Positions 35,037 to 41,356 of a stretch of DNA of 45,599 nt are shown here, one piece after another. This DNA is from Chloroflexota bacterium (lineage in GTDB: Bacteria > Chloroflexota > Dehalococcoidia > Bin125). The notes beneath the pieces were generated by a model. It saw nothing but the letters and a program-made list of their open reading frames with translations, made no database searches and was not told the origin of the DNA. The translations under genes and the position numbers were made by a program. Location: positions 1-45,599 of the forward strand of contig JAPPJZ010000064.1 of NCBI GenBank assembly GCA_028874365.1, in the 5' to 3' direction. Numbering within the stretch: position 1 is the first letter of the stretch; each line of letters starts with the position of its first letter.

Positions 35037-36098
35037 TCAGGTGAGTGGCGCGTCCGGATCTACGTCGGTGGTCGCTGCAATCCAGTAGCGATGGCGAATG
35101 CCCATCGACACTTCTTCGAGGTCGCGCGCCACCTGTCGTTCGGCCGTCTCATCGAGGCCGGCGCCACCGCATACCCCAGTAAGCATCGAGCGCTTGAAGA
35201 TCAGCCCAACGGACGCGTCGACGAACGAGAGATCGCGTGCCTTGTGGGCCAGGAAGTACTGCATATCCTTCGCGTCGAACGGCATGGGCCCCATGCCGTC
35301 GGTGGGCCACAGGCCCCAGCCCAGATAGCCGCCGCGGGCGACGTGCTCGCGAACCGCGCGGTGATGCTCGATCACGTCGTCGACATGACCTTCGCGCGCG
35401 TCGAAATGGATAAGGTTGGGACGCGCGTCGAGGATCCGGGTCCAGTTGGGCGAGGCGCAGCAGTGGATGCCGGCCAGCGCGCCGACACGTTGAACCGGTT
35501 CTATGGCGGCTCGCAGGACGGGCACCACTTCTCGCCAGGGCAGCGGAATCGTCGGCTCGCCGACTGAGGCCAACTCGGGTTCGTCGAAGAGGATGATGGC
35601 CTTATAGCCGAGGCGCTGGAAGGCCTGTGCTTGCTGCGCGGCGGCCGCGCCCAGCCAGGCACCGAGCCGCTGCAGTGATTCCGGATCCTCGTGCGGTGCG
35701 CGACCATTGCGGTCGCGTGACCATCGTGCGAGCGTGATTGGCCCGATGATCTGTCCCTTCACCACGTTCGACTTGCGCTCGTCGGGAACGTTGGGCAGTC
35801 GCTCAAGTAACTCGTACAGGCCGGCTGCTCGATCTCTCGGTGGAAGGTCGGCGTTGGCGAGATCCGTATCGGAGATTTCACCCGACCATGCGAGTGTCTC
35901 CCCATCCCAGGACGCTCCCGGCAGCGAGAGCCCGGTCTGGGGGATCATCTGTTCTTCGGGGATGCGATTCGGGAGTTGGGGCCAGAAGGGGAGGCGCCAG
36001 TAGTCCTCGAGCACCTCGGTCACGGCTGGGGCTGCGTCGGTATGTCGAGTCGAGCCGATGCCGCAGGGCAGGAGGGGCAGGTGAATCGGAGCGTCCAC
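35037..36098 (-). CDS. Core MetE/UROD-like barrel protein, possible folate-independent methionine synthase
   Basis: This 353-residue TIM-barrel protein resembles the C-terminal (catalytic) half of MetE only. It starts 'LPCGIGSTRHTD' and has 'RLPFWPQLPNRIPEEQMI', 'GQIIGPITLA', 'ILFDEPELASVG' and the zinc-ligand pattern 'GIHCCAS' (His and Cys), with a later Cys in 'TGVCGGAGLDE'. The folate-binding N-terminal half of MetE is absent. Core-MetE families (MesA-MesD type) take methyl groups from methylcorrinoid proteins rather than from methylfolate. Chloroflexota relatives are known to have such proteins, so methionine synthesis is a good but unproven guess. GTG start at 36098. It is divergent from the B12-dependent nrdJ. 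Confidence 0.78.
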   Translation of the reverse strand: MDAPIHLPLLPCGIGSTRHTDAAPAVTEVLEDYWRLPFWPQLPNRIPEEQMIPQTGLSLPGASWDGETLAWSGEISDTDLANADLPPRDRAAGLYELLERLPNVPDERKSNVVKGQIIGPITLARWSRDRNGRAPHEDPESLQRLGAWLGAAAAQQAQAFQRLGYKAIILFDEPELASVGEPTIPLPWREVVPVLRAAIEPVQRVGALAGIHCCASPNWTRILDARPNLIHFDAREGHVDDVIEHHRAVREHVARGGYLGWGLWPTDGMGPMPFDAKDMQYFLAHKARDLSFVDASVGLIFKRSMLTGVCGGAGLDETAERQVARDLEEVSMGIRHRYWIAATTDVDPDAPLT

Positions 36099-36315: not shown

Positions 36316-36356
36316 TGGATAATCGCTCACGAGCTTGATCAGTTGACTCAATTTGG

Positions 36357-36449
36357 AGTACTCTTGCTTCCCGCTGCGGAGCAGCGGGGCGAACATAACC
36401 GAACTCGGTTCCGGCACCCCCTCCGGCCATGCGTCGGAACAGGAGTACT
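36357..36449 (+). promoter_or_regulatory. nrdJ leader fold that can sequester a Shine-Dalgarno sequence
   Basis: A closing stem of ten pairs joins 36357-36366 (AGTACTCTTG) and 36440-36449 (CAGGAGTACT). It encloses a perfect hairpin (CCCGCTGC with GCAGCGGG, 36370-36388) and a stem TTCCG/CGGAA (36409-36413 with 36435-36439). ACCG/CGGT (36398-36409) is a mutually exclusive alternative to the latter. The 3' arm contains AGGAG (36441-36445), which serves the mini-ORF at 36456. This is a riboswitch-like translational control layout ahead of a B12-dependent enzyme gene, but no canonical cobalamin box was found. Confidence 0.5.
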
Positions 36450-36455
36450 AATCTG

Positions 36456-36479
36456 ATGAATGAAGGGTACACGACATGA
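36456..36479 (+). CDS. Seven-residue upstream ORF coupled to nrdJ
   Basis: ATG at 36456, ten bases after AGGAG, opens the frame MNEGYTT. Its TGA overlaps the nrdJ start as ATGA, the same coupling used by many gene pairs in this window. nrdJ also has its own weaker GAAGG at 36463-36467. Coupling through this ORF would put nrdJ translation under control of the leader stem. Not shown to be translated. Confidence 0.4.
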   Translation: MNEGYTT

Positions 36480-39370
36480 CTCGCGCCGACGATCAATCTG
36501 ACGTTGCCGACGACGCGGCCGCTGCCATCTCGACTGAGACCGGCGCCGAGGAGCATGCCGCCCTACCCCCTGCCGCTCGCGTCGTACGCGAGCCGTTGAT
36601 TCGCAGGCATTTCACCCAGCCGGGTGAGGATGTCTACGCGCAGATTGAGTGGACCTATCGCACGGCCGCGATCACCTCGGACACCGGTGACACGATTTTC
36701 GAGCAGACCGATATTGAGACTCCCTCGTTCTGGTCGCAGACGGCCACGAACATCGTCGCCTCGAAGTACTTCTGGGGCGAGGCGGGCACTTCTCAGCGCG
36801 AGTCTTCTATGAAGACGCTGGTTGACCGGGTTGTCGAGACGATCACGCGCTGGGGTCGCGAGGGTGGATACTTCAGCGACGGCGCGGCGGCTTCGGCCTT
36901 CTCGCAGGAGCTGCGCTACCTGCTGATCAACCAGTACGCGGCGTTTAACTCGCCGGTCTGGTTCAACGTGGGGATCGAAGAAACGCCGCAATGCTCGGCC
37001 TGCTTCATCAACTCCGTCGAGGACACGATGGAGTCGATTATGGACCTGGCCAAGCGTGAGGCGCTGCTGTTCAAGTGGGGGAGCGGCACGGGCTCCAACC
37101 TCTCGACGCTGCGTTCCAGCAAGGAATCGTTGACCGGCGGCGGCAAGGCGTCCGGGCCCGTCTCGTTCATGCGCGGCTACGACGCGTTCGCCAACGTGAT
37201 CAAGTCGGGTGGCAAGACGCGCCGCGCGGCCAAGATGATCATTCTCGACGCCGATCACCCCGATGTGCTGGAGTTCATCGACTGTAAGGCCGATGAGGAG
37301 CGCAAGGCCTGGGCGCTGATTGACGCCGGCTACGACGGCTCGCTCAACGGCGACGCGTACTCGTCGGTTTCGTTCCAGAACGCGAACCACTCGGTCCGTG
37401 TCGCTGACGAGTTCATGCAGGCCGTGGAGGCGAACGGCACGTGGGCGACGCGCGAAGTCGTGACCGGCGAGGTTGTGGAACAGATCCCGGCTCGCGAGAT
37501 CCTGCGCGCGATCTCGGCGGCGACATACCAGTGCGGCGACCCGGGGATGCAGTTCGACACGGTGATCAATGACTGGCACACCTGCTCGAACACGGACCGG
37601 ATCTACGCTTCGAACCCGTGCTCGGAGTACATGTTCCTGGACGACACGGCGTGCAACCTGGCTTCACTCAACCTGCTCAAGTTCTACGACCTGGAGACGC
37701 ACGAGTTCGATGTCGAGTCGTACCGTCACGCTTGTCGCGTGATGATTACGGCGCAGGAGATCCTGGTCTCCAATGCGTCCTATCCGTCCCCGCTGATCGG
37801 GGACAACTCCGAGAAGTATCGTCCGCTCGGCCTTGGCTACACGAACCTCGGCGCGCTGCTGATGGCTCGCGGATTGCCGTATGACTCGGTGCCCGGTCGC
37901 GCGTTGGCCGCCGCTGTGACGGCGCTGATGACCGGCGAGGCATATCTACAGTCGGCGCGGATGGCGGAGAGGATTGGCCCGTTCAGTGGCTACGCTCCCA
38001 ACCGCGAGCCGTTCTTGCGCGTGATGCGCAAGCACCAGGCGGCCGTTGGCCGGATCGACGGTCTTGAGAGCGTTCCCGCCGTCGTACGAGCCGCAGCAGA
38101 GGATGCCTGGCGTCAAGCAGTCAAGCTCGGCGAGGCGCATGGCTACCGCAACGCGCAGGCGACGGTGCTGGCCCCGACCGGGACAATCGCGTTCATGATG
38201 GACTGCGACACGACCGGCGTGGAACCGGACATCTCGCTGGTCAAGTTCAAGAACCTTTCGGGCGGTGGTTACTTCAAGATCGTGAACCGCACGGTTCCCG
38301 CCGCGTTACGGCGCCTGGGCTACTCGGATGACGCCGTCGAACGAATCGGTTCGCACATCGACGAGACCGGCACGATCGAGGGCGCGGCGGAGCTCAACAC
38401 TGAACACCTGGCGATCTTCGACTGCGCCTTCAAGGCGCAGAACGGGCAGCGCAGCATCGCGCCGCTTGGTCACATCCGCATGCTGGGCGCGGTCCAGCCG
38501 TTCCTCTCGGGGGCGGTCTCAAAGACGGTCAACGTGCCTGAGCACACCAACGTCGAAGAGATCATGCAGACCTACATCGACGCGTGGAAACTGGGCGTCA
38601 AGGCCGTCGCGATCTACCGCGACAACTCGAAGCGCATTCAGCCGCTCGAAACGGGCGAGCGCAGCGGCCAGACCGACGTTGCTGAGCCGGTCGAGCCCGG
38701 ACCTTCATTGCCGAGCGATGCGCCCGTCGTGATCGAGAGCGCGCAGTCGCCTCCGGCGTATCGGCGGCATCGGCTGCCCGACGAGCGCAAGGCGCTGACG
38801 CACAAGTTCACCATCGGCGACCACGAGGGTTACATGACGATCGGCGAGTTCGCCGACGGTAAGCCGGGCGAGGTCTTCGTTCATATCTCGAAGGAAGGCT
38901 CGGCCGTCTCGGGCTTGATGGACGCGGTGGGCACGTTGACCTCGGTCGCTCTGCAATCGGGCGTACCCCTGGCGACCTTGGTGAAGAAGTTCAGCCATAT
39001 GCGCTTCGAGCCCAGCGGCTGGACGCGGAGCAAAGACGTGCCGCACGCAGATTCGATCCTGGATTACGTCTTCCGTTGGATGGGCAACCGCTATCTGGAT
39101 CAGGGATCCTCCGATACCGTCGCAGCGCAAGCTCGGATGCCGATCGCGGAGGAAGTGAAACTGGCCGATGAAGACGCTGGTCCGGCGCCCGTGACCCCAC
39201 CGACGAGCAGTGTGCTCCACGTGGCCGAGCCACAGGCCTCATACAGCTCGGATACCGGCTTCCAGAATCAGCTCGACGCGCCGCCCTGTGCGGAGTGCGG
39301 CTCGATCATGGTGCGCTCGGGCTCTTGCTTCCGCTGCATGAACTGCGGCGCGACATCGGGCTGCTCGTAG
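36476..39370 (+). CDS. nrdJ: Vitamin B12-dependent (class II) ribonucleotide reductase
   Basis: This 964-residue class II ribonucleotide reductase makes deoxyribonucleotides with adenosylcobalamin as radical source. Recognisable parts are 'FNSPVWFNVGIEE' and 'CSACFINSVEDTMESI' (about 158-190), 'GSGTGSNLSTLRSS', the active-site 'NPCSEYMFLDDTACNLASL' (about 380) and 'APTGTIAFMMDCDTTGVEPD' (about 566), and a C-terminal domain. The domain ends in a zinc-ribbon/redox tail, 'CAECGSIMVRSG' and 'CMNCGATSGCS' (about 938-964). Length is usual for NrdJ. It is monocistronic; a zinc-ribbon RDD gene converges on it three bases after the stop. Its leader is described separately. Confidence 0.96.
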   Translation: MTRADDQSDVADDAAAAISTETGAEEHAALPPAARVVREPLIRRHFTQPGEDVYAQIEWTYRTAAITSDTGDTIFEQTDIETPSFWSQTATNIVASKYFWGEAGTSQRESSMKTLVDRVVETITRWGREGGYFSDGAAASAFSQELRYLLINQYAAFNSPVWFNVGIEETPQCSACFINSVEDTMESIMDLAKREALLFKWGSGTGSNLSTLRSSKESLTGGGKASGPVSFMRGYDAFANVIKSGGKTRRAAKMIILDADHPDVLEFIDCKADEERKAWALIDAGYDGSLNGDAYSSVSFQNANHSVRVADEFMQAVEANGTWATREVVTGEVVEQIPAREILRAISAATYQCGDPGMQFDTVINDWHTCSNTDRIYASNPCSEYMFLDDTACNLASLNLLKFYDLETHEFDVESYRHACRVMITAQEILVSNASYPSPLIGDNSEKYRPLGLGYTNLGALLMARGLPYDSVPGRALAAAVTALMTGEAYLQSARMAERIGPFSGYAPNREPFLRVMRKHQAAVGRIDGLESVPAVVRAAAEDAWRQAVKLGEAHGYRNAQATVLAPTGTIAFMMDCDTTGVEPDISLVKFKNLSGGGYFKIVNRTVPAALRRLGYSDDAVERIGSHIDETGTIEGAAELNTEHLAIFDCAFKAQNGQRSIAPLGHIRMLGAVQPFLSGAVSKTVNVPEHTNVEEIMQTYIDAWKLGVKAVAIYRDNSKRIQPLETGERSGQTDVAEPVEPGPSLPSDAPVVIESAQSPPAYRRHRLPDERKALTHKFTIGDHEGYMTIGEFADGKPGEVFVHISKEGSAVSGLMDAVGTLTSVALQSGVPLATLVKKFSHMRFEPSGWTRSKDVPHADSILDYVFRWMGNRYLDQGSSDTVAAQARMPIAEEVKLADEDAGPAPVTPPTSSVLHVAEPQASYSSDTGFQNQLDAPPCAECGSIMVRSGSCFRCMNCGATSGCS

Positions 39371-39373
39371 GCG

Positions 39374-40117
39374 TCAGGACGAGTCCTCGAGCTGCCGGAT
39401 GAGCGTCCGTCGGCGACGCTCATACTCGGTCTGAGACAGCGTCGGCTTGGCGCGCTCCAACGCTTCGAGCTCCGGTGAGGTAGGCGCAGCGCTGACCGGC
39501 TGAGCCGGTTGAGGCTGTTCAACGTTCGCTGTCGGCGCCGGCACCGAAGCTGGCGACGGTGGCTTCACCCGCGGCCCTCGTGGCGCGGGGGGCGGCATCG
39601 CGATGTCGCCAATATCTTGCTGGCGTCGCGACGCGGCCAGCTGGGGAGCCTCACGACGAATCACGACGAGCGTTCCCACCATGCGGTCGTGGATGCACTG
39701 ACGATCCGGATTCAGCAGGATCCAGCCAGCGTTGACGAGCGGACCAAGCAGGCTTATGGCGTAACCGACCAAGCCGAGCGCGAGGCGCTTGATGAGCAGT
39801 TCGCGAACCCACATCCGTCGGGGTGTGATCGGTTGTCCCGACTCATGGATGACGTACATCGCGAGCAGCGACTTGGCTGGGGACTGGCCGTCGCGGGCTG
39901 TGAACCACATCCAGTACAGCCAGATCGGCAGCAACAGGAAGATCAGGAGATCGAGTAGCTCGCAGCCAAGGCGGCGCAGATAGGGTGCGGCATAGTCGCC
40001 GGAAGTCGGGTGCGAGGTGAGCACGCCGCAGGCGCTGCAAAATGCGCCGACTCCGGGGTACTCCTCGCAGATTGGGCAGTGCTCGGCGCGTAGTGCGCTC
40101 GTTCTTGGCGGCGACAT
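39374..40117 (-). CDS. Zinc-ribbon RDD membrane protein with SHOCT-like tail
   Basis: This 247-residue protein starts with a C-x2-C...C-x2-C ribbon ('HCPICEE' and 'CSACGV', about 14-30). An RDD membrane domain follows, with two or three helices ('RRLGCELLDLLIFLLLPIW' at the start), 'GQSPAKSLLAM' and 'NPDRQCIHDRMVGTLVV' before the end of the domain. It then has a Pro-rich linker (about 170-215) and a C-terminal SHOCT-like helix pair ('LEALERAKPTLSQTEYE'). RDD proteins are of mostly unknown function; some are ion antiporters. It is the last of three tandem RDD genes and the only one with the C-terminal extension. Convergent with nrdJ. Confidence 0.82.
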   Translation of the reverse strand: MSPPRTSALRAEHCPICEEYPGVGAFCSACGVLTSHPTSGDYAAPYLRRLGCELLDLLIFLLLPIWLYWMWFTARDGQSPAKSLLAMYVIHESGQPITPRRMWVRELLIKRLALGLVGYAISLLGPLVNAGWILLNPDRQCIHDRMVGTLVVIRREAPQLAASRRQQDIGDIAMPPPAPRGPRVKPPSPASVPAPTANVEQPQPAQPVSAAPTSPELEALERAKPTLSQTEYERRRRTLIRQLEDSS

Positions 40118-40154
40118 GATTGCCTTCCGCCACGAGGTTAGGACAGGCGGCGGC

Positions 40155-40709
40155 TCAGCGAGGTTGTTTCGCCAGTTCTACGACCAGCGTGCCGAGGACC
40201 TTGTCGTGCAACGTCTGCCTGTCCCGATTCCAGAGGAGCCAGGCGGCATCGAGGAAGGAGAACGCCCAGAAGGCGAACGTGAGCCAGAACCAGAGCAGCA
40301 ACAGTTCGGCGACGGAACTGGCGACAGCGCCGAGCAGGACGAGGAGACCGACGGAGACGACGCCGATCGCTGCGTCCCAGCCGAACTCTCGCAGCCAGAC
40401 GTACCGAGCGGAGGCGGAACGTGCATCGGCGCGGACGATGTGCAGTCCCAGTAGTGATTTGCCGGGTGATTGTCCGCGAGGAGCCACGATCGCAAGCCAG
40501 ATCAACCAACCGATTCCAGCCGTGAGCCAGATGATCAGATAATCCAATGTGAATGCGCCGAGCCTCGACCAACGGGTGGCCGCGTACGCCCGATGTTCGG
40601 AGTCGACGCTGAGGACATCGCAACTGGCGCAGAAGAAGGCGCCCGGTCCTGACGGTCGATGGCAGACGTCGCACTCGAGGACGAACGTGCGCGGCGTCAC
40701 CCGGGTCAT
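40155..40709 (-). CDS. Zinc-ribbon RDD family membrane protein
   Basis: This 184-residue protein has an N-terminal ribbon ('LECDVCHR' and 'CASCDVL', about 12-32) and an RDD domain, 'WSRLGAFTLDYLIIWLTAG', 'PRGQSPGKSLLGLHIVRA' and the end motif 'WNRDRQTLHDKVLGTLVV'. About four membrane helices are visible. The start at 40709 is chosen because it gives the ribbon at the N-terminus, as in its neighbours, and overlaps the upstream RDD gene's stop by four bases (ATGA). A longer open frame upstream has no family similarity. It is closest in layout to the 40706 gene. Confidence 0.83.
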   Translation of the reverse strand: MTRVTPRTFVLECDVCHRPSGPGAFFCASCDVLSVDSEHRAYAATRWSRLGAFTLDYLIIWLTAGIGWLIWLAIVAPRGQSPGKSLLGLHIVRADARSASARYVWLREFGWDAAIGVVSVGLLVLLGAVASSVAELLLLWFWLTFAFWAFSFLDAAWLLWNRDRQTLHDKVLGTLVVELAKQPR

Positions 40710-41356
40710 AGGGCTCGAAGCTCGGCGCTGGTCTGGGGAACGGCGCGGATGTTGATGACGAGCGTTCCGAAGACGCGGTCGTGCAGTGTCTGTCTGTCGG
40801 GATTGAAGAAGATGGCCACGCCATCGGCAACCACGATCACGCCGATGGCCAGGACGATGAGGTTGCTGGCGATGGAGTCCGGGTAGAGGGAGCTGAGAAT
40901 GAGAATCGGCGCGTTGATGACGACGCGATAGCCGACCTCTCTGGCCCACATCCGCGCACGTGTGGCCGACGAGCCATCGGTGCGAATCACCTGGGTCGAG
41001 ACGAGTTGCTTGCCCGGGGTCTGCCCGCGCCGGGCGAGGAAGGCGAACCAGATGAGCCAGATCACCGAGCCGAGCCACAGCTCGAGTTCCAGCACGCCGC
41101 CCAGACTGGCCAGTCCGAGCGCCAGACCGATCACGCTGGGGATGAGGCCGTCCGCTAACGCACCCATGAAGCGGCTGAGTCTCGTCGCTGCGTATCGGGG
41201 CGAGTGTCCGTACTCGGCGTCGGAGCGGAGCACGTTGCAGGCGGTACAGAACTTGACGCCTAATCTCGTGTCCTGGCGACAGGCAGCGCAAATGGCGCCG
41301 AACAAATCGGACGGTTGTCGGTAGGGATCGGTTGGGAGCGGCTCGAATCGGCCCAC
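40706..41356 (-). CDS. Zinc-ribbon RDD family membrane protein
   Basis: This 216-residue protein has a ribbon at about 23-45 ('ICAACRQ' and 'CTACNVL') and an RDD domain, 'LSRFMGALADGLIPSVIGLALG', 'RRGQTPGKQLVSTQVIR' and 'NPDRQTLHDRVFGTLVI'. It is the first of three tandem paralogues. A TAAGCT (41382-41377, minus) inside the end of the PHP gene could be its -10 box, and CGAGGAG lies near the start. The recurring cytosolic ribbon plus RDD layout suggests a common partner or metal-dependent regulation, but no function is established. Confidence 0.83.
   Translation of the reverse strand: MGRFEPLPTDPYRQPSDLFGAICAACRQDTRLGVKFCTACNVLRSDAEYGHSPRYAATRLSRFMGALADGLIPSVIGLALGLASLGGVLELELWLGSVIWLIWFAFLARRGQTPGKQLVSTQVIRTDGSSATRARMWAREVGYRVVINAPILILSSLYPDSIASNLIVLAIGVIVVADGVAIFFNPDRQTLHDRVFGTLVINIRAVPQTSAELRAL

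Follow-up and report, generated by a model that had tools for sequence, protein, structure and literature searches.

A structured, fast-evolving and probably cis-regulatory leader upstream of nrdJ in a genus of Dehalococcoidia

The nrdJ locus and its relatives

The stretch of DNA considered in this study (the window) comprises 45,599 nt of a Chloroflexota genome that is assembled in 82 contigs and 96% complete. On its forward strand, at 36476-39370, lies nrdJ, which encodes a class II (B12-dependent) ribonucleotide reductase (RNR) of 964 amino acids (NCBIfam NF005122, E=0; Pfam PF02867, PF08471 and PF12637). The gene is preceded by the Shine-Dalgarno sequence (SD) AAGGG at 36463-36467, and a purine-rich SD (AAGGG, AGGAG, GGAGG or similar) is kept in all 15 species of the genus. 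Divergent from nrdJ, on the reverse strand at 35037-36098, is an open reading frame (ORF) of 353 amino acids that has no sequence match in Pfam, NCBIfam or PDB and that looks by eye like cobalamin-independent methionine synthase or UROD-type proteins. After nrdJ, also on the reverse strand (39374-41356), come successive ORFs that by eye resemble one another, the first of them an RDD-family match, which points to a small cluster of paralogs. All features of the leader described below are on the forward strand, except where a DNA site without orientation is meant.

The region upstream of nrdJ was compared in 20 genomes: 15 species of the genus (14 plus the window's own) and five genomes from sister genera. 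Neither NrdB nor NrdD, representing class I and class III RNRs, was found in the 15 genomes of the genus, which apparently have nrdJ as their sole RNR gene. The regulator gene nrdR, sought with TIGR00244, was found in none of the same 15 genomes. Three of the sister-genus genomes have a second class II-like RNR, and in two of these nrdR lies beside it.

Most congeners share 90-96% identity over the first 308 residues of NrdJ, as against a mean of only 48% over the 140 nt 5' of the nrdJ ATG. With the leader so divergent despite the similarity of the protein, its conserved features stand out: the hexamer ACATAA, a block GGAACAnGnGTRCTA about 40 to 20 nt before the ATG, the SD, and promoter-like boxes farther up. 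In one congener (L004), at about 200 nt upstream of nrdJ, CTGTGGACAA and GTGTGGATAAG occur as repeats that bring DnaA boxes to mind. Covariation was assessed on nine alignable, related sequences, and the P values given below are nominal and uncorrected. A second measure, the own-versus-cross test, does not depend on alignment columns: it compares the pairing energy of a species' own two strands with that of strands mixed between species.

The closing stem, the short ORF and the promoter-like boxes

The original prediction held that a ten-pair stem closing the leader hides the ribosome site AGGAG of a seven-codon ORF and so shuts off nrdJ through translational coupling. The pieces of this arrangement are all present in the window letter for letter, among them the ten closing pairs (36357-36366 with 36440-36449) and an eight-pair internal hairpin, CCCGCTGC/GCAGCGGG (36370-36377 with 36381-36388). 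AGGAG is found at 36441-36445, and the mini-ORF, MNEGYTT, runs from the ATG at 36456 to the TGA at 36479, overlapping the nrdJ ATG at 36476 as ATGA.

The closing stem does not, however, behave as a conserved helix. Covariation among related nrdJ leaders, set beforehand as the test of the stem, is absent: a species' own strands and mixed strands pair equally well (P 0.58, or 0.53 and 0.60 when the cuts are varied), and the covariation score in the alignment was matched by 144 of 500 shuffles. The stem is not part of the minimum-energy fold of 127 nt, where the 5' arm is paired to AAGGGTAC, the SD of nrdJ, and not to AGGAGTACT, and the stem's probability ranges from 0.05 to 0.98 depending on the stretch folded. 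The 3' arm coevolves with a different partner, 36414-36421; changes to this arm in L010, L011 and L013 break closing-stem pairs and are largely matched in the counterpart of 36414-36421. Two further pairings that involve the SD were rejected for want of coevolution, that between the 5' arm and AAGGGTAC seen in the minimum-energy fold and a hairpin of 36445-36449 with the SD (P 0.56).

Coupling through the mini-ORF fares no better. The counterpart of AGGAG in relatives reads GGGCG, AAGCG, AGGCG or AGAGG, and no other species of the genus has a start codon with an SD at the position of the mini-ORF, which is confined to this species; L002, L003, L009, L010 and L014 lack any ORF in its frame. All 15 species, by contrast, have an SD belonging to nrdJ itself. 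A striking stem and an overlapping ORF in one genome can thus fail comparison with relatives.

The 5' arm of the closing stem, GGAGTACTC, is nonetheless fixed within the group. It contains TACTCT, and the simplest reason for its conservation is that TACTCT serves as a -10 box. The hexamer would complete a moderate candidate promoter at 36335-36364, in which TTGATC (36335-36340) is followed after 18 nt by TACTCT (36359-36364). The combination of TTGATC with TACTCT or TAGCCT at a spacing of 17 or 18 nt occurs in six species (about 0.04 are expected per species by shuffling), and most of the others have a distal promoter of the type TTGCnA-17-TAGACT. Transcription from the candidate in the window would start near 36371, leaving most of the closing stem's 5' arm outside the transcript. 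A start downstream of 36366, which the original prediction had itself named as a finding that would speak against it, is on the strength of this promoter a live possibility.

Another -10-like hexamer, TAATCT at 36449-36454, lies 21 nt before the ATG. Hexamers of the form TANNNT occupy a fixed position, 19-22 nt before the ATG, in 12 of the 15 species, but no conserved -35 element accompanies them in the leaders of the 15 species. Farther up, the aligned leaders place the counterpart of a near-palindrome, CAANTGNTCAAC..GTTGANCANTTG, at 36324-36345; in relatives it lies just downstream of the distal -10 box, and it may be an operator. The idea that it marks membership in a regulon was rejected, since a search of 15 genomes returned scattered matches, with no clear excess over the control. 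Between one set of leaders (L002, L003, L008 and L011) and another (L004, L005, L009, L012 and L014), the spacing of the near-palindrome from the distal TAGACT-type -10 box shifts by about 12 bp, or roughly one helical turn, as though an operator had stayed on one side of the helix with respect to the promoter.

The ACATAA box and the helices around it

The invariant hexamer ACATAA (GAACATAAC; 36393-36398) is found 62-85 nt before the ATG in 12 of the 15 species of the genus and in three of the five sister-genus genomes (L017-L019). It is absent from L004, L008 and L012, even though their NrdJ proteins are 90-95% identical, and of about 80 other nrdJ upstream regions just one contains ACATAA[C/G]. 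A role as a -10 box was rejected by inspection, there being no -35 box at the right distance. In L017, L018 and L019, which represent two sister genera, AACATAA forms the apical loop of a hairpin of 6-7 bp, whose stems differ in sequence yet still pair (TGTTAG/CTAACA, CCGATAG/CTAGCGG); this hairpin is possibly the core of a family-wide element. The same three genomes have promoters of the TTGACA or TTGACG type upstream of ACATAA, and the box is therefore probably transcribed.

Folded as a whole, the 127 nt of the window's leader surpass chance by a modest margin, with a z score of -2.1 against shuffled sequences, 10 of 200 of which fold as well. When 45-nt segments were slid along the leaders of 11 species, the mean z score reached -1.70 (s.e.m. 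0.37) exactly 5' of ACATAA, with a second optimum of -1.33 for segments ending 60 nt past the start of ACATAA (15-60 nt after it), and stayed near 0 farther upstream. RNAalifold, applied to nine leaders, found almost no consensus structure or energy.

The first of the two optima corresponds to hairpin P2, CCCGCTGC gga GCAGCGGG (36370-36388), and relatives back it: most have a hairpin just 5' of ACATAA, its sequence varying from species to species. The eight-pair hairpin of the original prediction survives in this form, as a hairpin that ends just before ACATAA. The own-versus-cross test gives P 0.001 for P2 (P 0.03 with other cuts); column counts on the MAFFT alignment are not significant. ACATAA then stands unpaired between P2 and a 3' domain in which two helices lay claim to the same bases.

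One of these, P4 (36414-36427 with 36433-36448), consists of a core and an extension. The core hairpin, CCGGC catgc GTCGG at 36423-36437, emerges from the folding segments, from covariation and from the own-versus-cross test. For P4 the latter test gives P 0.003, and the covariation score was reached by 9 of 500 shuffles in a set of few sequences (nine leaders). In the extension, GCACCCCC (36414-36421) coevolves with AGGAGTAC (36441-36448; P 0.016), the latter being the same bases that were assigned to the closing stem and to the SD of the mini-ORF. The extension is weak in the window's species, with five of eight pairs, and strong in L009, L010, L011 and L013.

The other helix, P5 (36432-36458), pairs CGTCGGA (36432-36438) with TCTGATG (36452-36458) around a loop that holds 36439-36451. 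Its covariation score is 0.302, a value equaled in 1 of 500 shuffles and higher than that of every slid version of the helix; both sides have changed at four pairs, and the own-versus-cross test gives P 0.009. P5 was found post hoc, as the top pair in a scan that ranked all 1485 pairs of 10-column windows. P2, the P4 core and the P4 extension fall within the best 0.13-0.6% of the same pairs.

GUCGG (36433-36437) is required by the P4 core as well as by P5, and the two helices are therefore mutually exclusive. The presence of competing helices, part of the original prediction, is supported. The P4 extension and P5 together would form an H-type pseudoknot. Relative to shuffled upstream sequence, the leader leaves the SD equally open or more so in most alignable species, which counts against strong occlusion by default. 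No terminator was seen in the leader, where no hairpin has a T run behind it.

A covariance model (R1) built from nine leaders of the genus detects a single copy in each genome, invariably at nrdJ, across the nine species of the model and, weakly, in L007 (9-10 of 15 species). Run over 294 genomes of the class, it finds only the genus plus three borderline matches (E 0.02-0.09). The element is thus restricted to close relatives, with no convincing occurrence elsewhere in those 294 genomes.

Known RNA families and the reading of the leader

A search of the window at Rfam's own thresholds gave no match, and a permissive search around the leader gave none except a chance miRNA. The suggestion that the leader might belong to the nrdJ RNA family (RF03034; membership above 40.3 bits) was not upheld: the family's model gave no match to the window, to the leaders of the 15 species (E<=5) or to the nrdJ loci of the 20 genomes, while it scores 82.8 bits in a Streptomyces nrdJ leader, the positive control. 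The position is shared with RF03034, the element lying directly upstream of nrdJ in all relatives with the leader ending at the ATG. The Streptomyces RNA also shows the same order of a hairpin, an ACA-containing linker, a second hairpin and the SD, and its match spans a stretch between about 105 and 23 nt upstream of the ATG, where the P4 domain here ends about 27 nt before it. However, the conserved sequences are AGACAG..ACACC there and GAACATAAC here, the lineages differ, and the models match in neither direction, R1 failing to detect the Streptomyces leader. The likeness in layout may be convergence.

Cobalamin riboswitches (RF00174) occur in RNR gene leaders of other bacteria. In Propionibacterium acnes the nrdAB and nrdDG operons for RNRs carry them and nrdRJ does not (PMC3848588); here canonical examples (above 31.5 bits) lie elsewhere in 17 of the 20 genomes, and none was found at nrdJ in the 20, in agreement with the original prediction, which saw no canonical cobalamin box in the leader. 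In the window's own genome one of them (L122, G000:C9 100994-101198) lies upstream of an ORF that by inspection resembles a FecCD/BtuC-like permease.

The reading that fits best after comparison of the 15 species is a structured, fast-evolving leader before nrdJ that is probably cis-regulatory. The conservation of ACAUAA, the preference for hairpins at two places, the coevolution of P2, P4 and P5, and the single copy at nrdJ only are directly supported. In the particular account toward which I lean, with somewhat less than even confidence, nrdJ is transcribed with this region as its 5' leader, which affects expression of the gene in cis through P2, ACAUAA and the P4/P5 domain. It must be weighed against a less likely but serious alternative, a promoter region in DNA with no regulatory RNA at all, TACTCT (36359) and TAATCT (36449) being -10 boxes, the near-palindrome an operator, and the leaders short and unstructured. 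The fixed position of TANNNT, the paired boxes in six species with distal promoters in most others, and a closing-stem 5' arm conserved without coevolution, as expected of a promoter box, all speak for it. It is hard to reconcile with the missing -35 of the proximal hexamer, with the good promoters that lie upstream of ACATAA in sister genera, and with the enrichment of hairpins, the coevolving helices and the ACATAA loop on changing stems, which are signatures of RNA. Also unlikely is a leader that is transcribed but passive, its 5' stem-loop stabilizing the mRNA with no switching in response to a signal. A transcript from the proximal candidate promoter would start at the foot of P2, and the open SD and rapid evolution of the sequence (mean identity 0.48) fit such a leader, but neither an ACATAA kept invariant nor a pair of coevolving helices that exclude each other would be needed for it.

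Two further explanations I regard as very improbable. Gating of nrdJ by the closing stem, through AGGAG and the seven-codon ORF, has all its pieces in the window, but the stem does not coevolve, its 5' arm may lie outside the transcript, AGGAG and the ORF are found in no relative, and nrdJ has a conserved SD of its own. A divergent member of RF03034 or of the cobalamin riboswitches would account for the placement and layout shared with Streptomyces, and can hardly be squared with the silence of RF03034 at these leaders, the failure of R1 on the Streptomyces leader, and the location of RF00174 matches elsewhere in the genomes.

If the transcribed cis-acting leader is the correct account, its layout would be the 5' hairpin P2, an unpaired ACAUAA and a 3' domain whose GUCGG pairs either upstream (P4) or downstream (P5). 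The P4 fold, with its extension (36414-36421 with 36441-36448), would leave the stretch by the nrdJ SD open and translation on. P5 ends 4 nt before the SD and would set a stem against it, turning translation down, whether or not 36414-36421 joins in a pseudoknot. A protein or small molecule that recognizes the ACAUAA junction could shift the balance between the two. Such switching is possible; I infer the transcription start, the direction of control and the signal.

RNR genes are usually controlled in response to nucleotides by NrdR, acting through NrdR boxes (PMC9110341). NrdR is a protein repressor, unlike the RNA leader here, and went undetected in the 15 genomes of the genus. With nrdJ apparently the only RNR, its shut-off by B12 would presumably bring DNA synthesis to a halt, and B12 is unlikely as an off-signal; since, moreover, NrdR is undetected, feedback by a nucleotide or by the state of the RNR is a better guess than repression by B12. 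There is a precedent for nucleotide feedback through RNA in the 2'-deoxyguanosine riboswitch of Mesoplasma florum, which is a small cis-acting RNA and precedes a gene for ribonucleotide reductase (PMC12268651). That riboswitch acts by transcription termination, whereas the leader here has no visible terminator and matches no Rfam family; the shared trait is an RNA before an RNR gene. It would be a long shot that the leader represents a new, genus-restricted riboswitch class, with the H-type pseudoknot (36414-36421 with 36441-36448, plus P5) by the SD and a nucleotide or corrinoid read through the ACAUAA junction, in replacement of NrdR feedback. In these bacteria a B12-dependent enzyme is apparently the sole route to deoxynucleotides, and the leader is a concrete candidate for the control of dNTP supply.
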